Of a DNA stretch of 64,000 nucleotides, positions 17,424 through 53,852 are shown piece by piece (within the stretch, counting starts at the first letter, position 1; the number at the start of each line of letters is the position of its first letter). The stretch comes from Polytrichum commune (Eukaryota; Streptophyta; Polytrichopsida; Polytrichales; Polytrichaceae). The stretch is from positions 63,952,533 through 64,016,532 of the forward strand of contig OX485804.1 in the NCBI GenBank assembly GCA_950295325.1, read 5' to 3'. The notes below the pieces were generated by a model. The model worked only from the letters and a program-made list of their open reading frames with translations. It did not search any database and was not told the DNA's origin. A program made the position numbers and the translations under genes.

Positions 17424-18360
17424 ATGCCATCAGGCCCACCCGATCTCATGTTCCTCACTGTGACAAACAGCTACTATGTTAGGCTTTGCTTAATTATATT
17501 AATCGACCGAGTGTTCAGGGAGATTTGTGAGCGTATTTGGTCAAAACCCTAGTGTTCTCAAGCCCAACTGGCTACATGTTGTGATCTTCTCAGTTTTACA
17601 TGCCATCAGGCCCACCCGATCTCATGTTCCTCACTGTGACAAACAACTACTATGTTAGGCTTTGCTTAATTATATTAATCGGCCGGGTGTTCGGGGAGAT
17701 TTGTGAGCGTATTTGGTCAAAACCCTAGTGTTCTCAAGCCCAACTGGCTACATGTTGTGATCTTCTCAGTTTTACATGCCATCAGGCCCACCCGATCTCA
17801 TGTTCCTCACTGTGACAAACAACTACTATGTTAGGCTTTGCTTAATTATATTAATCGGCCGAGTGTTCGGGGAGATTTGTGAGCGTATTTGGTCAAAACC
17901 CTAGTGTTCTCAAGCCCAACTGGCTACATGTTGTGATCTTCTCAGTTTTACATGCCATCAGGCCCACCCGATCTCATGTTCCTCACTGTGACAAACAGCT
18001 ACTATGTTAGGGTTTGGTTAACTATATTGATCGACCGAGTGTCTGGGGACAGTGCCCGGGAAGTTTTTGGGCATATATAGTCGGTCAAGATCCTAGTGAT
18101 TCTAAATCCAGCCGGTTGCATGTTGACATCTTCCGGTATTGCTTTCATTCATTTGAGGTATATTCCATCGATTCCTCTAAAATGATCACTAATTCTCCTG
18201 AAGTCTCCAACTCCAACCGGTTATTTCTCAAACTCAACCGGTTCATCTGTAACTGACCGCTGGTTCTTTCCGGACACATAGTTTGAGGAGATTTGTGAGC
18301 ATAACTGGTCGAAATCCAAGTCTAACCGGTTACATATTGTGGTCTTTTCGGTTTCTCTAT
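17424..18360. repeat. 176-bp tandem array grading into repeat family D
   Basis: Three nearly identical 176-bp units begin at 17424, 17600 and 17776 with ATGCCATCAGGCCCACCCGA. A fourth starts at 17952 and diverges after about 60 bp into older, CCGGTT-containing versions (18010-18130 and 18280-18360). The inner part of each unit is related to the inverse of repeat family D, so the array probably arose by recent amplification of part of a D copy. The first three units differ at only a few positions, which points to recent expansion or homogenisation. Confidence 0.85.
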
Positions 18361-19489: not shown

Positions 19490-21420
19490 GCTAATTTTAC
19501 AACAAAATTACAATACCCTTCCCCCCAATTCACTTTACAATATAAGCCATCCCCATAACTCCCCCTCCCCTAATACAACACCAAAAAAATGCCTCTCACC
19601 TCCATACTAATAATAGCACAACAAAATAACTAAACCAACATCAATTCCTTCCTACATTCACTCATACGCAACAACCTACAACACAATTTACATACCGCAA
19701 CACCCACACCCATCACTTATACACCTCAACCGGCACCTCATTGCACCGCAATTGCAACCTCCCCATCCTACACCACACCATACACCCCTTCCACCAAAAA
19801 TAACCACTTCACCTATTAACATTTACCCCCCCCCCCTCTCCCCCATATAGAGAGGGAAACGGTAATATGGCCCACTCATGCACACATAGTTGCAAAATTA
19901 CCGGGCTACCCAAATATTTTAACGCACTTTGCACAAAACTATACGCACTTCTTCTCGCAAGAGAACACACCAAAACACTCACCACATACACATTAATCTC
20001 CACCAAATACCTCAATAGCATACACCTCCTACTCAATCACATAAGACACCCCTCATCCCAAAACAACCACCTAGACAAACTCATCATCACATACATAATA
20101 AACACCATCAAAACCTCTAGACACAACATCACCATCAAAAATGTAAGAGCTCACACAAACATCCAAGTCAATGATGAAGCAAACAAACTAGCCAAACAAG
20201 GTGCACCAAAACCCATGATTATAGAAACCCCTTTTCACCATATAGGCCAACAAACACCATTATGGCCCTCTATCCCCCCTACTTCAACTCAACATGACTA
20301 TGTAGTTAGGAACCTAAAAAGATACATAGAAAATGAACACAAACAACTCTAAAAACACACATTACAAACACAATACTAAATGTAGAAAAAATGGCTATCC
20401 ACCCAAGACATTCCCTTGAAATGGTCAAACCTCTTTTGGAATGCACCCTGGATCACGGATGCCCAAACCACCCTGGTCCTCAAATTTTGCTAAGGGAAAT
20501 ATATGGGAAATTACCCCAAAAAAAAATTCAAACAAGAAATCTCCCCATTATGTAATTTATGCTCATTAAAAGAAACTAACACTTGCCTCCACCTCCTCTC
20601 ATGTTGTACGAATCCACACATAAATAACTTCCACACCAATAGACATAATAAAGTAGTACACACACTAACCGCCACTCTCCTAGCTCACCCTACCATGAGA
20701 TGCTTCACACTTGTAAATGCCGGGATAATTGAAGACAAAACACCATAAAATACTATCCCTTGATGGCTCCTCCCATGCACAAGCTACCTTCCAAAATTTA
20801 AGTCCCCCGCCAAACTATGCCCGGACATACTATGCATCCTAGGCACAACACCCACAGACAAACCCCCATATACACCCCACCCAACCTTAAAGTACAATTC
20901 CTTGGGTTTACATACTGTACTGATAGATTCCCCCAAGCAACCACCACAAGAAAACTAGAAAAATACGACGTCCTACAAACAACACTAACCCAACAAAGAT
21001 GGATAGTCCTACCCCACATAATCATGACAACATGCATCAAGGGCACCATCCACAAAGCCACAACCAAGAGCCTCCTAGACCTTAAAATCCCCACGGCCAA
21101 AGTTCACAAATATGCATGCAACAAATACACTTAATAGCCATCAAATACCTCACCCTACTCATACTTAACAAAAGAAAACTTGAAAACCACCAACTCCCTA
21201 TCCTACTCACCTAACCACCATGCCAATAGGGATAGACAACCCCCAAGGCCAAGCACTAGGAAATGAACCGTACACAAGTTGAAACTACTATAGATAGAGA
21301 CAAGGTCCGCATTACACCCACCCTCATGGTACTCATATCAACCCACTAGAGACTCATATGCCTCCTCGGACAATAAGAGGGCCTTAGCCCCCCCCCCCCC
21401 CCCAACCCATGTTTCCTTGG
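19490..21420 (+). mobile_element. LINE retrotransposon remnant, 3' half: RNase H plus restriction-like endonuclease (copy 1)
   Basis: C/A-rich sense strand, unlike its surroundings. The RNase H region (frame 19867-20352) has KLYALLLA, HIRHPSSQNNHL and VRAHTNIQVNDEANKLAKQG, but the usual TDS catalytic site has become ISTK. Next come CNLC, then HLLSC (C-x2-C-x9-H-x4-C), and RHNK (20641-20652). After WLLPC and KLCPDILCILG (about 20762-20845) follow VQFLGFTYCTDRFPQA and KLEKYDVL (about 20893-20980). The tail AIKYLTLLILNKRKLEN is at about 21139-21189. CCHC-RHN-PD is the layout of the restriction-like endonuclease of R2/CRE/Dualen-type LINEs, which nicks target DNA. The acidic residue expected in (E)FTYC is Gly here. 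The reverse transcriptase half is missing. Inactive. Confidence 0.8.
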
Positions 21421-26229: not shown

Positions 26230-28320
26230 AACCTTCCAACACATTCCATACATCTACCTGGGAGAAAAAGGTCATCAACAAATCACATAGGCAAACTTTG
26301 TCGTTGTACATGAATTCCTTAAACCCACTCCACGAGCTTGAGCACTTTATCTTCTTCCAACAACAAACACAAAATACAGTTACATTACGACCAAGAACGC
26401 TTCCGCCCACAACGAAATACCACCAGACAAATCCAAATGATCGTAGCCGCCCTAGAAGATGCAAAACACACATCTCGAGACAACCACGTCATCTACATTG
26501 ATTTCCAAAACACCTTTGGCACCATCGACCATGCACGACTCTTAGCAATCATGGATGACTTAGGCTTCCCACCCAACGTCTTAGAAATAGTTAACGACAT
26601 CTACATCAACTCCACAATGGCCTTCCACAGGGTTTACTATAAGACCACTACATCAATCAACATAAGTATGGATATCATACAATGCGACACACTAAAAGTC
26701 ATGTACCTCTTTATAATATTCCTAAAACCCCTCCTTAGATGGCTAGAAATTGGTTCACTAGGTAACCACTTTTTAACCCCCCAATAGCACACGCATGGTA
26801 TGGCCTATGTGGATGATCTATCAATCCTCACAAACACAATTCTAACCTACAACCACAAGTAGAAAAATTCCAATAATTGTCAAATGGGCACACGTGGACC
26901 TACACCTTGCAAAATGTGCCATCACAAGGAAGCTTCAACAAGGCCAAACTCAAACTGGTCCTATTAGGAGCCCTTATCTAAGGACAAAGAATAATTTTCA
27001 AAGGACAAAATTTTTTTCAATTTTAGCATAAAACGAGCCATACACTTACTTCGGTATACTTTGACTAGTCCCATCATCAAAATTGCAAACCCAAATAAAA
27101 CTTACCATGAACAAAGCAAAGCAACAAAGTAAACTCCTCCTAACCTCCCTAGCAACTAGCTACCATGCCTCTAAAAATCAGAACACTCAAAACACTATCA
27201 TCACCCTTGGCATAGTCTATGCTTACGCATTCTATGGACTCCTATTCTTAAAGCCATACGTCAAGAAGGTAGTCCAAATTTGAGCAAACTCACACTTGTT
27301 TTTTTTTGTAAAATCTGCAAAAATAGGACCAACATATTAACTTAGCTCAACACAAAAGACTTCGGCATCAATATCACATTCATGCCCAAATGAACATAGA
27401 TTGCAAAGGTAACAACTCATCCAAGCCCTAAACGACCAATGCCAACTAGGAAAGATATTATATCAAAGACTTGCCAAATATACTTTAACAAAACATGGAA
27501 CCTCCCTAAACTTACATACCAAAGCATGTGCATGATCCCTTACAACCATGACCCTCTTCCTACTAGAACGTGGACCTTGAATTACACATATCTACATGCA
27601 ACAAAGCAATACCCGTTGAACAAACCTCTTTGGAGAAAGAAAGGCTTGTCCACCTTGCATATAAGTCCTTAACTCAAGGCATGTATGCACACACAACATT
27701 TTACACTTACCAACACTAGCACTCAAAACAAACCGCCCCTAAGACAACACATTGCCCCATGGATCCTAAGATGTACATGCACCACCACAACAATGCTCAT
27801 GCATGGCAAGACTACAACCAAACATAGTATTCATGAAAGGTGCCTCATTGGAACAAACCAACCCCTAATATCATCACCTCACCTTACAATCCAAATAATG
27901 AAGTTCACATTCACTCACAATAGATATACCAAACAAAATAAACACGAACCTCTGAGAGAAGCCATTAAAAACCCAAGGTTGCCAAGTCAAACCGCTCATA
28001 ATGATCACTATGGTGTAAGAGGTGCAATTCACATGTGAAGCATTGATCAACTAGAAGCACCTCCATATCCTTTTCTCACTTGCCAAGAAATAGTGAAAGA
28101 TGTCCACCATATCGGAATCAAATTTCTCACATACTACATTGTATGAAACGAACGGAAACAAGAGGGGAGCAAGAGCCCAAGCTTCTCCCCCCCTCCATAG
28201 AAACACTCTACCTATTGCTATTGTAACCTCACCTTATAGCCCAACTACCACAAGGCGGGTAGTAAACCCTATCATGTCATTAGAGTACTCTTGAACAAGA
28301 TAGGGCCAACAGGCTCACAT
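26230..28320 (+). mobile_element. LINE retrotransposon remnant: reverse transcriptase to 3' end (copy 2)
   Basis: Reverse transcriptase motifs are clear: ERFRPQRNTTRQIQ (about 26390-26432), VIYIDFQNTFGTIDHARLL (about 26488-26544, the catalytic D motif A) and LGFPPNVLEIVNDIY. The AYVDDLSIL box (about 26802-26828) is the variant YVDD catalytic box. Downstream the frame is broken many times. The C-terminal domain is still traceable: ARLQPNIVFMKGA (about 27812-27850, with the PD of the nuclease changed to PN), IQIMKFTFTHNRYTKQ (about 27889-27936), QVKPLIMIT (about 27985-28010), VRGAIH, and GIKFLTYYIV. The 3' end reads ACTCTTGAACAAG then GGGCCAACAGGCTCA and is shared with copy 3. No poly(A) tail. 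Inactive. Confidence 0.85.
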
Positions 28321-28880: not shown

Positions 28881-30395
28881 TCCTCCTAAGGGAGGAAGCG
28901 ATGGAGAGTGGGCGATCGAGCGGGTGAAGGGTTGAGGGAAAGCCTCCAAGCTCAAGCTCCCCCTGACAGCCCCCCGCTCCCCGCACCGGGCTCGGCCTCA
29001 TGCACCCGTGGAGCCCCGTCAGCGGCCCAGTGGACGCATCCCAGCCGTTGGGATGATGGACGGTTGCGATAGCCTAATCCACCCGCTCCAGCAGACAACG
29101 GGTCTCTGGCCGGCCGGCCCGGCTCACCGTCTTTACCATTCTTAGCTGCTCTCTACAGGGCCAGCATTCGGCCACGCCTCTGGATATCCAGCCGTCCCCA
29201 ATTTAACCCCTGTGCCTTTTGGCTACCCCCGTCTGGGATGCCATGGATGGGTGGACATGGCCATGCTATGGATGGGTGGATATGGCCATGCCATGGGTGG
29301 GGGGGATGCCCATGCATGTGGGTATCTGTTGGGGTTGGCCATGAACAGTGCCGGAGGTCGCTGATTGGTCGCCTTCTGGGGATGCATGACCGGCATGTGA
29401 CTTTTGTAGCCTTGCGGTAAGATTGAAGCTTGGTGAGTGGACGCGGATATGCAGGGAGAGAAAGAGAGAGTGAGAGAGAGGGGGCGAGAGAGAGGGAGAG
29501 AGAGGGAGAGAGAGAGAGAGAGTGATCCTTGAGAAAGAGGGCGAGTGGATTTCGGCCCAAAAGGTCGATTCATAAGGTCTGGTCCGGGCTCCCATTCGAC
29601 AGCTCTTTTGCTAAGTAGCATCACCTCCTTCTTGGCCGGAGCCACATGATTCATTCCTGCTTGCTTGCTTTCTTGTTTGATTGATTCCTTACACATCCCA
29701 CAGTTCCGTTGCTTGTTGGGTTTGGTGCGGGTTTTGCTTTTGCGGAGTCGGCCCTTTGTTGCAATTAGCCTGTGAGTGACTCGAGAGAGATCAGTGTCGT
29801 GCACTTTCCCTTTCCCCTCGGGACAACATTCTTCTCCACTTTCCGGACTTATGTAGATGAACCATCGTCACCTACCCTCTTGCTGTTGCTGCTTTTGCTG
29901 CTGCTTCGCATTAACATCGGGGGTGGGGTTGGGTCATCAAGGCTTGAGCTTTGGGTAGCTTTGGGTGGGTGGGTGGGATAGCTTGATCAGAAGCGCTAAA
30001 AGGGCAACTTGCGGGGTAGCCTCTTGGTCTTTTTCCCTTTCTCTCTCTCTCTCTCTGTGGTGCATGCGCGAATTGATTTGTGGGTCACCGCAGTGGGTAG
30101 TCTGTTGGAGTCGTATGAAAAGTGAGAACTGACTTAGTGGGGTCCCCTTGATCGGACATTGCAAAAAGATAGAATTCCTCAAGACTTAACTGGGAGCGGG
30201 GTTTGGGGATGTCACAGTGAAGGATAGGCTAAGGGTTAGGCTTTGAACTTGGTTGGTTGCACAGGTGGGGGATATTTGCAAGAGAGCGGGAGAGGGGAAG
30301 AGAGAAGAGGAGGTGCACAATCTGGGGTGTGTTTTGAAGCGGGTCATGAAAGTTGGGAGAATTTCGTAGCCTAGTGGTGACTCCAGCGGAGAGTC
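28881..30395 (+). promoter_or_regulatory. upstream region and probable 5' leader of the Dof gene
   Basis: GC-rich patch at 28930-29140, then degenerate repeats of an ATGGATGGGTGGACATGGCC motif (29240-29315). A (GA)n tract is at 29455-29523 and a (CT)n tract at 30043-30057. Purine/pyrimidine tracts of this kind are common in plant promoters and leaders, but no TATA box or start site could be fixed. Two very short upstream open frames precede the main ATG, 30209-30220 (3 codons) and 30346-30369 (7 codons). If they are in the mature leader they could damp translation. An in-frame TGA at 30378-30380 bounds the main reading frame. Confidence 0.5.
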
Positions 30396-31664
30396 ATGCA
30401 TCTGCCCATCGGACACCCGGGGCATCTGGGGGACTTTGATGATGAGAGCAACATCCATCTGGAGGAGCTGCACGCGTCACGGTTGCAGGTGGATTCGGGG
30501 TCAGGGAGCGAGGGGTCACAGGGGAGCAGGGGGAGCGGAGGATGCATCCGTGAGAAGCCAGTGAAGGTCATCCCGTGCCCGCGCTGTCAATCCATGAACA
30601 CCAAGTTCTGCTACTACAACAACTACAGCGTAAACCAGCCGCGACACTTCTGTCGCAACTGCCAGCGTTACTGGACCGTGGGTGGGACGCTCCGCAACGT
30701 CCCGGTGGGCGGAGGATCCCGCAAGAAGACCCGCAGCCGCAGCCGCAGTGGAAATGACAACAATAACAACAACTACTTTCAAGCCGGAGTAGGGCCTAAC
30801 CCTCCTCCCGGCTTGGCTAACCCTGGTGCTTCACAGTTTCCGGGCCTGGACACTTTGCGGCAGTTGTCAATGCTCTCGCAGTCGCAGCAGCAGCATCAAG
30901 TGGGGTTAGGATTCCATAGTGGCCAGCTTGGTGGATTGATCCCTTCACCCCACTCACAAATCCCTTTCCTCCAGTTTGGCCTGGAGCCGACGCAAGGTAT
31001 GTCGTTCTCTAGCCAGCTCTTGAGCAAGCCGGAGCCAACCGATCACCTTCACTCTCTCTTCGAGACAAACAGCGCCGGCGGATTGATGCCAAGTAACTCA
31101 GGCGGTTACTACATGCCGGAAGTGGAGCCGAGCTCTCATTCTGAGGCTCTGGCCACTGTAATGCAGAAAGCGGGGTTATGGTCCAACCTCCCTGGGAATC
31201 ATCACCATCATCATCAGGTCCATCAGCCCTGCGCCTCTGAGGTTGCTTGGGAGGAAATGCAATCCAAATCCTCTCCTATTAACCCCCCGGCTCCGGCAGC
31301 GTTCAAATTTGAGGAGACGAGGGCCAGCAACCTGAACAGCAACAGCAACAGCAACAACAGTAGCAACAGCAGCGCCGTGTTGCATCCTCCTTCCAAGCCT
31401 GGGTTCTGGGAAACGGCGTTGATGCACAGCCGACCTCCGGCGATGGAAAGACCTCCTCCGGGTATGCATGCATGGGACGATGCTCAACACCGGAGTAACA
31501 ATCTGTCCCCACATGCTAGCAGCAGCACCGAAGAGGGTGGTACCAGCAGCACTCCCAGCACCGGAGGCTACGTTTCTACGGGGCTATTTGGGGACGCCGC
31601 AGCATCACCTTGGGGTGGCTTGCAATTGCAACAGCTGAACGTCCCTCCAGAGATTTACTTCTGA
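30396..31664 (+). CDS. Dof-domain zinc-finger transcription factor (422 aa, intronless)
   Basis: Plant-specific nuclear DNA-binding protein. Dof domains recognise AAAG cores. The domain spans about residues 55-112: [20 protein letters not shown], then [20 protein letters not shown] and [12 protein letters not shown]. The four zinc ligands are C61, C64, C86 and C89 in the family's C-x2-C-x21-C-x2-C spacing. A basic [11 protein letters not shown]-like stretch follows and may act as nuclear localisation signal. The rest is low complexity, as usual for activator regions: a His run near residue 268, an Asn/Ser repeat near 314-326 and a Ser/Thr-rich C-terminus ending NVPPEIYF. The ATG is chosen because an in-frame TGA lies 18 nt upstream. 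The acidic N-terminus ([12 protein letters not shown]) precedes the domain. Which Dof subgroup it belongs to, and its targets, cannot be told from sequence alone. Confidence 0.95.
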
Positions 31665-44099: not shown

Positions 44100-45825
44100 A
44101 TAGAGCAATGGTCTCCAAAACCAATTGGCATTGTGTGAGGAAGATAAAATTTGATGGGTTTTGTGTTCTTGACTGGGTTGTAAACTTCATCATGTGGTCC
44201 CAACACAAAATCATCACACAAAACGTTTGGGCACACACATGCATTCAAGGCAACGAATTGGCAGATGCATTAGCAAATGAAGGTGCCCTCAAAAGCACCA
44301 TAACCCCAGTATCACACATATATGTCGCGCACACCATCCCAAACAAACTAACCGAACCCCCCTCAACCACAAACCTCACAAGCATCGTTAGACATCTACA
44401 ATCCTACATACAAAAAGAACACATTGGGCTCACAATCACATACGCCCAAAAAATCCCCTACACAAAAAAATGGATATTAAACAACAATCAAATAGATTGA
44501 AAACAAACAACACAAATTTGCAAATTTTGTTCTGCACAGTACATGGGAAATCACAAAAAAAATTTATTTTGGTCTCACACATACACGAATCCCAAAAGTA
44601 CCCTTTGCCCTAGAAATGATAAAGACATATGGCCACACCTCCTCTTCATGTGCAAAAACAAATTTCTCAAAGGATTCCGAATAGCATGATATTCATGAAA
44701 GTGTCACATGGCATGCAAGAATGTCACAAATGTCGTTTTCTTTGACACAAGGAAGGCCAACTTGAATTGGTCTTTGGAGGCAGCTTTTGCCAACAAAATC
44801 TAGATGTTTTTACAAAATGCTAGTAGCATGTGCAAGTGATAACAAGGGAAGAAGTTTTTTTATATCATGAATACTATGTTCTTCATTGTTACTTCAAACA
44901 CTCTTGATAACAATCAAAACATAACATTCATGATACAAGAAGACTTATTCTTTACTTTATGAACTTGTACCATAGGTGCCCATACAAAATTAATTTCAAA
45001 ATGCAAATTTTTCCAAAGTTGAAGTGCACCCCACAAGATTAGAAATTGAGTTGGCCTTGGGAAAAAAAATGTCACATTCACATGTGACATTTCCACAAAT
45101 ATTATGTTATGATTCCTCAAAGGACTTTGAATAGTAAGACACAATGCCGCCATCCGCAAATGAACCAATCTACTAAAATCATGCATACACACATGTCACT
45201 TCACACTCACCAAGGCCGGAACAATAAATAGCACACCTCAAGGTAACAACATCCCACCATGGATACTACACTGCATGTGTAACACTTCAAATGTGCATGC
45301 CTCACCAAATTATAGCTAGATATCATACACATACAAGGAGATACTACAGAAGAAACATGCCCACTAATACCCACACCCAACCTCTCCATACAAATAATCA
45401 AAATCACATCCACCCAGGACAGATACACCACCCAAGCCATCCAAGCCTTAGACAAATACAATCCACTAAGAAGAAGAAAAATTGTGCACAAGGATGGATA
45501 GTGAACCCCCTCAAAGTAAACATTGTAGGTGTCCGAGGAGCATCAATACAAACAATCTAGACGAACTCCATAGTCTACATATACCCATGACATCCATCAA
45601 AAACTCAATGAAAAATATACACATTCTAGCCATTAAACCCCTCACATACCTAATCCTAAACAAACATAAACTAGACAATAAACAAGCTCCCCTCCCCCGG
45701 GATAATACCCCTTGCCACTTAACCCATGAACAACAAACTAGGGCCCATCTACTGTGAGGTAGGCACTAAACCCTCTCTTGTACCAAGGGGACTCTTGAAC
45801 AAGGGAGGGCCAACAAGCTCAAATT
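44100..45825 (+). mobile_element. LINE retrotransposon remnant, 3' half, interrupted (copy 3)
   Basis: Same family as copies 1 and 2. The RNase H C-terminal block VWAHTCIQGNELADALANEG is at about 44223-44282. Then come QYMGNHKKNLFWSH, STLCPRNDKDIWPHLLFMC (about 44591-44650, the CCHC region with its first Cys lost) and KGFRIA, ending at 44684. About 490 bp of unrelated sequence follows where RHN should be. The element resumes with HFTLTKAGTINSTPQG (about 45198-45245), PPWILHCMC, IQIIKITSTQDRYTTQAIQ, a GWIVNPLKVNIVGVRGAS frame and AIKPLTYLILNKHKLDNKQ (about 45632-45688). The 3' end ACTCTTGAACAAG then GGAGGGCCAACAAGCTCA (45790-45820) equals that of copy 2. Nuclease acidic positions are lost. Inactive. 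Confidence 0.8.
44690..45185. other. insertion interrupting LINE copy 3
   Basis: About 490 bp with no similarity to the LINE protein. It falls between blocks that are contiguous in copy 1 (CCHC and the WLLPC region) and has the AT-rich composition of surrounding DNA. No convincing TIRs. Possibly another non-autonomous element or a rearrangement. Confidence 0.45.
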
Positions 45826-50964: not shown

Positions 50965-52829
50965 GAGACCCCTGCACAACCCCACTTACTGTCAAGAGCC
51001 GCAAGGAAAATCAAAAACTACATAAATAAACACAGCGAGACATCATCAGAGCGATGCTCTCAAAATTCAATAACACAATTTCCCTCGTACACAAGAATGC
51101 CTCCTTGCCTCCGAAAGGGACCACCTCCGACAAGAGGCAAGAGGCAGGAACACTTGTCCCATAGTCATGCTCAGTAAACCCGTCTCGTATTCACACATGA
51201 GTTTGCGGCTATGATCAAGGGTAAAGCGTCCTTCATTCACGCGTAATCTCTCTCTCTAGGAATCTCTCGCCACAAACAGCAGAACCGACGGAGAACAGAA
51301 GAAAAGAAAAAGAGTCAGCACGACATACCCTAACCCCTTCAAAAAAACTTAACCGACATTTGAGCACATTTCTCAAACCTCACTCACCCACCGTCCCCCG
51401 TTCACAAAATGGCAAATCATCCATCACCACTGTGACACAACTCCGTCGAAAAATCCTTAAACCAAAGCGATCGGAAAGCCACACTCTCAACCACTCCTTG
51501 AAACCGACACAGAGGCATCAAAATCCCGGGATAATTTTCAAAAAAACTCAAACACGAGCCAAAATTCGTAGGAGCGTACCCAAGCCGGATGCGCGCAATA
51601 CTGTGAAGGGATTTGAGAGGGCAGAATTTCGCCGCGTGGATTTAGAGCGATCAGTGCAGCGACAGGAAGCGAGAAAGAGAAGTCTTCACAGGTGATGGAA
51701 GTTAAGGTGACCTGAGGTTATCTGGCTTAACTGCGGTTATCTCTCGGGTTTGCCCAGAGCCCACGTGGAGCCCTCTCATTGTGTGCGCCCTTTTTACTTT
51801 CATCATAATTTCATGGCAAACCTCATTAGTCAACACATACCTCACCTTCAGGGCCACTTCACACACGAGACTGAGAGCCCGTGACCATCACACTTCAAGC
51901 ACTCTCATTGGTGGAAAAGGCAGAGCCGGTCTAAGTTCGCTTCACACTCCGCTTGAGGGACCAACGGAGTATGTGAATGCAAAATGGATGTTGCAAAATG
52001 GATGTAAAGTCTACATGGATTCCTACATGGCATCAAATGGATCATGTTTCATGTTCATTTGAACTATTTTCAAAAATCACCTTATGGAGGTAGGCCTAAC
52101 ACCAAACTGGGAGACCGTGGCACTCCGAATGCTCACAACCGTTGATTTATTTTATTCTATCATATGTGATGACTTGCATGAATAGAAATTCATTGAAATG
52201 GTATTTGATTAAGGATCCGGTCACACATGACTTCACACTACACTTGAGGATCCGTGACCACACTACATGATTTTGGAGGTGAATTGGGACGGCCTTCGGA
52301 CACTTTGTTTTCGGCTCTTACAATTTCATGGTCACGGCTCTTGGCTCGTGTGTCAAGTGGCCCTGATGTGGCCTCTCAGGCTCTGTATGTTTTGAACAGA
52401 TTGTGCAATCAAATTTGAGCGTGTTCCGGATGGTTGAGCATTAGGAATTGTAGATTCATGCGCCACTCAGTGTGTGACAGAGCTCAGCAAGCATGTAGTG
52501 CAATTAGGTTCATCGTGGAGTCAATTGAGTGCATTCCTTAGCACCTCAGGACTGAATTGCAGGATCATATTCCGTGGTGCTCTGTGACATGTAAGGTGAT
52601 GTAGTCTCTACATGGAGCTTCTTCTGGGGATGTGATTGTGGTGTGGATTGTGCAATGTTGGCACATTTCTAGGGTGGCATTCGTTCATGGTGTGGATTGA
52701 TGGGATGCCAGGACAAGCACAAGGTGAAGAAGAGGATGGCGAGGGAGGTGGCAAAGGCGAGGAATTAGTGCTGGAGGGTTGAGGCATTTGGGAGATTGAG
52801 GTAAATTTAGGTTTTCCGTCTCGGTTGCG
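50965..52829. promoter_or_regulatory. shared intergenic region between divergent GID4 and OST3
   Basis: A 1.87-kb region that must hold both promoters and leaders. No TATA box can be assigned with confidence. It contains a repeat also found at 21390-21590. Short frames here (for example 51360-51695) show no domain. Confidence 0.45.
51090..51270 (+). repeat. second copy of the 21.4-kb repeat, in the GID4 upstream region
   Basis: ACACTTGTCCCATAGTCATG, CGTATTCACACATGAGTTTG, CTATGATCAAGGGTAAAG and GTCCTTCATTCACGC parallel 21450-21560. Its position right upstream of GID4 means it could contribute regulatory sequence. Confidence 0.55.
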
Positions 52830-53852
52830 ATGGGGGTGAAGTTGCAAAATGTGGTGGGGTTGTTCAGTGTATTGGCCCTAATCGCGGGCATCGCCAAAGC
52901 GGATACGAACCAGGATCGCGTGGCAGAGCTCGTGCATTTGCAAACCGTCTCGAAGGATGGAGTCGTGCGGTTGGACGAAGGCGGCTTCCGGCGCTTCATG
53001 TCGATCTCGGATCCGCGTCCCTACTCTCTCATTCTGTTCTTCGATGCACACCAGCTTCGCAACAACAAGGAGCTGAAGCTGGAGGAGATTCGGAAGGAAT
53101 TCGGGTTGATGGCTTCCACATACATCAAACATAATAAGGGGCAACCTTCGGAGACCGAGGTGTTCTTCTGCGACTTGGAGTTCAGCCAAGCGCAGGGTGT
53201 GTTCCAGCTGTTTGGAGTGCAAACGCTGCCCCATGTGAGGTATGTGCCCATGGGGAGCGGCGACCAACACTCTAGCATGGAGATGGGCACCGAGTTTCCC
53301 CATATTGCCGAGGCCATGTGCTCCTTTATGACATCCAAAACGAAGATAGACTGTGGTGAAATCGAACGCCCCCCAGCCTTGACCAGGAACCAAATCTGGG
53401 CGTTGACAGCATTGTTGGTGCTGGCTTCTCCCTTCGTGATCAGGCAGATGATCGCCCCCCAGTCGCCGTTGCGGGAGCCTAGGGTTTGGTTGTCACTTGC
53501 GTTGATGATCTACTTCTTCAGTGTGTCTGGAGGCATGCACAACATCATTCGGAATATGCCGCTCTTCATCCAGGACCGCAACAACCCCGAGAAGCTGGTG
53601 TTCTTTTACCAGGGTTCAGGGATTCAGCTGGGAACAGAGGGGTTTGTGGTGGGTTTCCTATACACCATCGTGGGAGCGTTGCTAGGGTTCGTAACCCACT
53701 TTGCCCCCATGATGCGCTCCAAGGTTGCCCAACGCGTTGTGATGCTCGTCGTCATCACCGTGAGTTACGTGGCGGTCAGGAAGGTCATCGCCCTTGATAA
53801 CTGGAAAACAGGCTATTGGATTCACGCATTTTGGCCAACTCGCTGGACTTAG
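52830..53852 (+). CDS. OST3: oligosaccharyltransferase subunit OST3/OST6 (340 aa, intronless)
   Basis: Non-catalytic subunit of the ER oligosaccharyltransferase that transfers N-glycans to nascent proteins; related to yeast Ost3/Ost6 and human TUSC3/MAGT1. Residues 1-24 form a signal peptide ending GIAKA. Residues about 30-175 form the lumenal thioredoxin-fold domain, with DPRPYSLILFFDAHQL (61-76), LFGVQTLPHVRYVP (127-140) and the cis-Pro at P134. Four membrane helices follow at about 189-208, 217-236, 270-290 and 299-319, matching the family's layout. Highly conserved stretches include NPEKLVFFYQGSGIQLGTEG (252-271) and LDNWKTGYWIHAFWP (322-336). The CxxC redox pair of yeast and animal relatives is absent, which as far as I recall is also true of the plant form. 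The start is bounded by an in-frame TGA 33 nt upstream. Confidence 0.95.
   Translation: MGVKLQNVVGLFSVLALIAGIAKADTNQDRVAELVHLQTVSKDGVVRLDEGGFRRFMSISDPRPYSLILFFDAHQLRNNKELKLEEIRKEFGLMASTYIKHNKGQPSETEVFFCDLEFSQAQGVFQLFGVQTLPHVRYVPMGSGDQHSSMEMGTEFPHIAEAMCSFMTSKTKIDCGEIERPPALTRNQIWALTALLVLASPFVIRQMIAPQSPLREPRVWLSLALMIYFFSVSGGMHNIIRNMPLFIQDRNNPEKLVFFYQGSGIQLGTEGFVVGFLYTIVGALLGFVTHFAPMMRSKVAQRVVMLVVITVSYVAVRKVIALDNWKTGYWIHAFWPTRWT

Follow-up and report, generated by a model that had tools for sequence, protein, structure and literature searches.

A 5'-truncated relic of an abundant, probably Dualen/RandI-type retrotransposon and the PCIF1-like domain of its relatives

The stretch of DNA analysed here, referred to as the window, comprises 64,000 nucleotides (C2:63952533-64016532 of a 408 Mb assembly). 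The feature under study within it is very probably what remains, after 5' truncation and decay, of one copy of a highly abundant non-long-terminal-repeat (non-LTR) retrotransposon of the Dualen/RandI kind, whose plant host probably belongs to the land plants. This assignment is drawn from sequence comparison with relatives elsewhere in the host genome, in which an apurinic/apyrimidinic endonuclease (APE) and a restriction-like endonuclease (REL) occur together in one element, a rare combination that defines the Dualen/RandI group of long interspersed nuclear elements (LINEs) and is known mainly from algae. The element class is known; new, relative to the literature consulted, are the host and a PCIF1-like domain that would not be expected in such an element.

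The window copy itself is a dead relic, 5'-truncated and frameshifted, whose parts were located as follows, using among others the second open reading frame (ORF2) of intact relatives:

19741..21202, + strand: probable Dualen/RandI-type LINE copy from RNase H to REL, 5'-truncated and frameshifted (tblastn with ORF2 of copies L003, L004 and L005 and with part of L012; domain-by-domain tblastn)
19804..20352, + strand: RNase H-like open piece (tblastn with an intact RNase H domain, E = 1.7e-19; Pfam RNase_H below cut-off)
20551..20607, + strand: CCHC zinc knuckle C-x2-C-x9-H-x4-C (sequence; four positions invariant in 17/17 aligned relatives)
20641..20649, + strand: RHN motif (sequence; invariant in 17/17; aligned with RHNK of the R2 chain 8gh6)
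20818..20844, + strand: CPDILCILG, corresponding to the PD of the REL (sequence; P and D invariant in 17/17)
20907..20933, + strand: FTYCTDRFP, in a different frame from the PD (sequence)

A first-pass annotation had described RNase H, CCHC, RHN, CPDILCILG and FTYCTDRFP in this order; all are present, FTYCTDRFP in another frame. The CCHC, RHN and CPDILCILG share one frame, that of the RNase H-like piece, which is interrupted by stops, and the different frame of FTYCTDRFP indicates a frameshift between it and the PD. Pfam RNase_H matches 19804-20349 with E = 1.9e-4 and 22 bits, short of the curated cut-off of 25.8, and, compared by eye with intact copies, the piece has other residues in place of the catalytic Glu and of two Asp. 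Similarly, the Glu preceding FTYC (IEFTYC or VEFTYC), invariant in 17 relatives, is Gly in the window copy. The CCHC and FTYC pieces of the window have no Pfam match, even at E up to 10. By tblastn, the ORF2 of an intact relative aligns along 19819-21202 as three collinear segments with 39-62% identity (best E = 3.3e-76), and because of these collinear matches, and of the at least 150 matches in the host genome for each window piece, the motifs are not chance occurrences. Two further fragments of the family are found in the window:

26365..28167, + strand: second family fragment with its interior missing, RT at 26365-27571 followed by a C-terminal REL piece at 27583-28167 (tblastn; the RT piece falls inside the 12-row family clade described below)
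44177..45697, + strand: third family fragment, from the end of RNase H to the end of the REL (tblastn)

When the host genome was searched with the FTYC and CCHC pieces, each gave at least 150 scored matches (the best of 2,627 and 2,564 first-look candidates, respectively). Among the matches listed, all seven large contigs are represented; many matches are decayed, and some lie inside open frames of more than 2,000 amino acids (aa). Eight long copies (L003-L010) were studied, and further loci were added later. The element is about 11.85 kb long and consists of ORF1 and a long ORF2, which is open over 2,372 aa in L003 and encodes, in order, APE, reverse transcriptase (RT), a PCIF1-like domain, RNase H, CCHC, RHN and the PD...E...K of the REL. 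In L003, Pfam identifies the APE (PF14529, 1.9e-7; PF03372, 3.5e-5, slightly below cut-off), the RT (RVT_1, PF00078, 2.1e-33) and, between RT and REL, RNase_H (PF00075, 2.5e-13), while no Pfam model covers the CCHC, RHN and PD motifs of the region after RNase H. The domain set of L004 is identical by Pfam. In both L003 and L004, one frame without interruption runs from the APE through the RT to the REL; thus, where the first-pass annotation had expected a REL in place of an APE, the element has both. Its proposal that RNase H lies upstream of CCHC-RHN-PD on one polyprotein is borne out by the open frames of other copies, and of the R2, CRE and Dualen types that it had considered for the layout, the layout is that of Dualen.

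The catalytic patterns of these domains are widely retained. The Q-E-T, GDFN and SDH patterns of the APE and the YADDL of the RT occur in 9/9 loci that reach them, and the Asn of the APE (TWN) is kept in all 8 of these 9 loci that were displayed. The catalytic Glu of RNase H is kept in the rows shown, mostly in the RAEMMA form in subfamily B, and the H-type pattern KV(R/K)AH..I.GNE.AD is present in 27/28 loci. For the REL, matches were obtained in 32 loci, from which 17 full-length rows were aligned, partial and some near-identical rows being left out. Invariant in all 17 are C34, C37, H47 and C52; R64, H65 and N66; P124 and D125; E152; and K168, K171 and Y172. A second cysteine cluster, C109-x-C111-x4-C116-x-C118, is located between RHN and PD. 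The order of CCHC, then RHN, then PD...E...K is present in 17/17 of these chosen rows; CCHC, RHN and PD...(D/E)...K in this order characterize R2-type nucleases. Counted as patterns, CCHC is found in 28/28 loci and RHN likewise in 28/28, both six-frame counts and hence inflated by chance matches, PD in 26/28 and FTYC..RF in 24/28. No relative of the REL was found in the collections viral_contigs and genome_contigs.

The REVERSE TRANSCRIPTASE (RT) was compared with the PDB and placed in a tree. Against the PDB it scores 75.7-117.8 bits with R2 proteins versus 59-61.5 bits with L1 chains, among which chain 8c8j is described in the PDB listing just as RNA-directed DNA polymerase. A tree of 30 rows was built, including 12 of the family (11 loci and the 26 kb window fragment), 3 of R2 and 14 from the host that we assume to be L1-like from their RT letters. 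The 12 family rows form a single clade (100/100) separate from the 14 host L1-like rows and from the 3 R2 rows, so that the RT does not group with the L1-like elements of the host; the first-pass annotation had named an RT tree as a check of its reading, and for the host L1-like rows this is the outcome.

Selection was assessed by pairwise Nei-Gojobori comparison of copies with the respective segment in one frame, i.e., 7 of 8 loci (6 for two of the eight segments); pairs outside the range of the formula were dropped, which left 13-21 of 21 pairs, or all of 15. The median dN/dS is 0.13 for APE, 0.04 for RT, 0.12 for the PCIF1-like domain, 0.06 for RNase H, 0.09 for CCHC-REL and 0.14-0.20 for linkers, values that are rough, dS being near saturation and often >1, which tells against leaning on them closely. 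The PCIF1-like domain is under purifying selection, with a constraint about equal to that of the APE.

Two other identities have been weighed against the Dualen/RandI assignment, both of them highly improbable. The element could be a plant L1 with its usual CCHC and an acquired RNase H, in which RHN and PD are chance letters. Plant L1 elements do have an endonuclease, RT and often RNase H, according to a review (PMC9033089), and the host itself contributes 14 rows of L1-like copies. However, the family RT clade is separate from these 14 rows (100/100), the RT has higher bit scores with R2 than with human L1, and CCHC, RHN, PD, E and K are invariant; additionally, the H-type pattern of RNase H is found in 27/28 loci, whereas the archaeal-like RNase H of plant L1 has R, as stated in PMC4640811. 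This identity was rejected on the RT scores against R2 and L1 and on the RT tree. Hardly more credible is an R2/Utopia/NeSL-like LINE that has RNase H and a REL as its only endonuclease, the APE of a neighbouring element having been ascribed to it in error. R2 is the closest RT in the PDB, and oomycete Utopia elements combine RNase H and REL (PMC4640811). Nevertheless, the APE shares an uninterrupted frame with RT-to-REL in L003 and L004, its three patterns occur in 9/9 loci with a median dN/dS of 0.13, and RNase H is upstream of the RT in Utopia (PMC4640811) and downstream here. It was the APE within the single ORF2 frame that led to the rejection of this identity.

The PCIF1-like domain is located between RT and RNase H. 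PCIF1 is a cap-specific m6Am methyltransferase. The Pfam family PCIF1_WW (PF12237) matches L003 with 6.4e-7 and 29.6 bits (cut-off 31.1), or 31.3 bits in the scan of alignment A1 of the domain, and L004 with 26.9 bits against the same cut-off of 31.1. PF12237 finds all 20 rows in alignment A1, at best with E 6.5e-14, while any other Pfam family is matched by at most 2/20 rows; since 13 of the 20 rows were fetched through PF12237, the count free of choice is 7/7 (subfamily A). Among 177,635 distinct PDB sequences, the A1 profile matches PCIF1 chains alone (6irx, 8.7e-4; 6irv, 0.13), and in the alignment to 6irv the NPPF stretch of PCIF1 is aligned with A-(H/F/Y)-P of the family. The catalytic N/D-P-P-F/Y/W is found in 0/20 rows of the aligned domain, where it is replaced by (H/F/Y)-P-x; NPPF-like strings occur in 9/29 loci by a six-frame count over whole loci, none of them inside the aligned domain. 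In the genome, the best 150 of 697 PF12237 candidates are all above cut-off, the top one with 55.6 bits. A REL match in the same locus was present in 20/20 PF12237 loci fetched, which were selected mainly for a long open frame. No cellular-type PCIF1 gene was seen among the fetched PF12237 loci, most matches not having been fetched and exons having been scored separately, and no relative of the PCIF1-like part was found in viral_contigs. The PCIF1-like stretch was seen in three subfamilies.

In addition to subfamily A, there is a second subfamily (L034 and L025), whose single open frame extends over 2,924 aa; its PCIF1_WW, RT and RNase H matches are above cut-offs and its APE match is below cut-off. 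The third subfamily is decayed and closer to the window copy by blastn. Among the six loci fetched for it, a PCIF1-like match was obtained in L058, where it is flanked by RT and RNase H, and in L057, next to RNase H, while L056, L059, L060 and L061 gave no such match. A stretch at about aa 1467-1517 of L003 is chromodomain-like, with Y-x-C-Q-W...W invariant in 16 aligned pieces. A chromodomain between the RT and the PCIF1-like part is not claimed: of the 16 pieces, 9 were given to Pfam, whose Chromo model matched 4/9, all of subfamily A, at E = 0.011-0.09 and had no match in the 5 other pieces scanned.

Two accounts of the PCIF1-like stretch compete with its interpretation as a captured domain without an active site. 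It is quite unlikely to be a composition artefact or a vaguely similar linker in an ordinary Dualen element of an unreported host, an account that would fit the scores of subfamily A, which lie about at the Pfam cut-off (29.6/31.3 bits for L003 and 26.9 for L004 versus 31.1), the matches to PCIF1 chains at just 8.7e-4 and 0.13, and the catalytic motif missing from the aligned domain. Set against it are the 7/7 rows not chosen by their PF12237 match, with any other family reaching no more than 2/20, the PCIF1 chains as the sole match among all the PDB sequences, the best 150 of 697 genome candidates all above cut-off and the presence of the stretch in three subfamilies. The domain is also unlikely to be an active methyltransferase with an altered motif that marks the RNA or DNA of the element. 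The conserved FG(S/A)-x-G, the W-x-G followed a few residues later by A-x-P, and the purifying selection on the domain would agree with activity; however, N/D-P-P-F is changed to (H/F/Y)-P-x in 20/20 aligned copies, and the N/D of this motif is essential in this class of methyltransferases. Instead, we read the PCIF1-like domain as a putative repurposed RNA- or cap-binding pseudo-enzyme. Because the NPPF is lost yet the domain is conserved, a binding role can be considered, and it is possible, if doubtful, that the domain binds the element's own capped RNA or 5' end without methylating it. The wider scenario is likewise offered only tentatively: an ancient dual-nuclease LINE lineage, thriving in a land plant, may have captured a PCIF1 domain that lost its active site and now holds the element's own capped mRNA.

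Beyond the features noted in the first-pass annotation, the element has ORF1, 2A-like peptides and a structured 3' end in addition to the PCIF1-like domain. The joined loci L054+L003 and L055+L006 are 98.9% identical over 10,373 columns and 99.2% over 1,564 columns and have a common 5' end; the L054+L003 copy spans about 11.86 kb. The ATG of ORF1 lies at this shared 5' end, and ORF1 is 1,294 aa long in L054+L003 and frameshifted in L055+L006. Its first 1,232 aa have no Pfam match, and its last part matches PDB entries only at E 0.27 or worse. Relatives of ORF1 with 32-62% identity occur in L058 and L061; ORF1 is old. As a separate observation, the coding strand of L003 ORF2 is strongly biased (A 39%, C 32%, G 11%, T 18%), and the bias is kept in window 19490-21420.

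One or two 2A-like modules are situated between ORF1 and the APE. GD(V/I)xxNPGP is present in 8/9 long loci (L003-L008, L010 and L034) and absent from L009; L005, L007 and L010 have the canonical E, other copies H, K or Q. In 5/8 loci (L003, L007, L008, L010 and L034), the peptide lies in the frame of the APE. The 2A motif is given as (D/G/C/N)(V/I)ExNPGP in PMC12846837, and LINEs with functional 2A peptides are known, according to PMC4981915.

In seven copies of subfamily A, the non-coding 3' end can be folded into four helices, in which 94.7% of cells are paired; when the helices are slid out of register, pairing is only 28-38%. Of 38 pairs, 16 are altered on both sides, and for four of five covariation measures 0/500 shuffles were as high. 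In subfamily A, the 3' end consists of (TTTTC)n after a conserved hairpin, with the repeat degenerate in L004. The covarying 3' RNA with (TTTTC)n is likely to act as a template-recognition element. A genome search with the 3' end found, among the best 40 of 396 candidates, 5 at >=98% identity (including L003 and L006), and such near-identical 3' ends suggest recent movement. By eye, the 3' ends of subfamilies B (L025-L027) and A resemble each other in their terminal hairpin, TTCACGCCGG...CCGG.GTTA or a near variant, and the 3' region outside this hairpin differs between the two subfamilies.

Several results weigh against this overall interpretation. Of 177,635 distinct PDB sequences, R2 chains are the only ones matched by the REL profile; the match is weak (E = 0.75) and extends just over the last part of the CCHC and the RHN, so that the PD half of the putative REL would be recognised by motif order and invariance. 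Of the domain searches suggested by the first-pass annotation, those by Pfam recovered RT and RNase H, while the REL search reached R2 chains only at this E-value. In the RT tree, support for joining the family with R2 to the exclusion of the rest is only 71/100, and a long-branch warning was issued. The 2A-like peptide lies in another frame in L004, L005 and L006. In the 3' RNA, further pair types are not above shuffles (150/500), and helix 1 is without both-sided change. In the third subfamily, the PCIF1-like stretch is found in just 2/6 loci fetched. Finally, no exact target-site duplication of >6 bases was found at the two full-length copies, because of which target-primed insertion is here only inferred.

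With this qualification, target-primed reverse transcription is the mechanism that we would propose. The 3' RNA structure and tail would recruit the ORF2 protein (ORF2p); one nuclease would nick the first strand, and the other would assist in second-strand cleavage or in target choice, while RNase H would strip the template RNA. The 2A-like peptide may free ORF2p from its leader via ribosome skipping. In the least certain step, which we consider possible rather than probable, the PCIF1-like domain would bind the capped RNA or 5' end of the element. If the capture scenario is true, a LINE would read the 5' end of its template besides the 3' end, favouring full-length insertion.

Other features of the window include a tandem array at 17424-18049 (period 176 bases, 3.6 copies, 97% matches) and two open frames on the + strand. 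The frame at 30381-31664 (427 aa) encodes what we take to be a Dof-type zinc finger, likely of a host transcription factor gene, and that at 52800-53852 (350 aa) presumably resembles an OST3/TUSC3-type oligosaccharyltransferase subunit. In the host genome, LEAFY gave 6 exon matches in 3 places; together with the Dof-like frame, these matches point to a streptophyte, and it is on these genes that the probable assignment of the host to the land plants is based.

Among the papers listed for Dualen, RandI and PCIF1, judged by title and opening of the abstract, and in the texts consulted, neither a land-plant Dualen nor a LINE with PCIF1 came up; an earlier description is possible. Dualen encodes an APE and a PD-(D/E)XK-like nuclease (PMC3636483), is regarded by its authors as intermediate between the REL and APE types of LINE and is invoked as a link for the origin of APE-type from REL-type LINEs (PMC4640811). 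RNase H is reported for Dualen/RandI (PMC4640811), the 3' ends of RandI are (ATT)n and (CTATTT)n (PMC3747384), and the hosts are green algae (PMC3747384, PMC8226300, PMC4438587), with LINE/Dualen also reported in cryptophytes (PMC12747079). Relative to these accounts, the range of Dualen is extended beyond green algae and cryptophytes by this abundant plant lineage, which has long open frames. For land plants, a review of transposons gives L1 and RTE as the only LINEs (PMC9033089); if the host is a land plant, the family contradicts this statement, and the proposal of the first-pass annotation that it is a little-described LINE lineage of land plants gains support. Such elements may be classed as L1 or as unknown in plant genomes, where they could be found with this domain set, and a motif-less PCIF1-derived domain in a LINE polyprotein would offer a new handle on how LINEs recognize their template RNA.

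In comparison with known systems, the element is most like Dualen/RandI, with which it shares an APE together with a putative PD-(D/E)XK-type nuclease, RNase H and a short non-poly(A) 3' repeat. It differs in its (TTTTC)n tail, its host, probably a land plant, and its PCIF1-like domain and 2A-like peptides, which the accessible literature does not mention for Dualen/RandI. R2 provides the best PDB match of the RT, and the R2 chain 8gh6 aligns with the RHN and with the final part of the CCHC; unlike R2, the element additionally has an APE, RNase H and the PCIF1-like domain, and its listed copies are spread over seven large contigs. Plant L1 resembles it in having APE, RT, RNase H and CCHC in one ORF2, whereas the RT clade, the type of RNase H, the REL motifs and the tail of the element are different. 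PCIF1 itself is linked to the domain by the PF12237 match and the PDB profile match; however, in the element the NPPF is replaced, and the domain sits between the RT and RNase H of a LINE.
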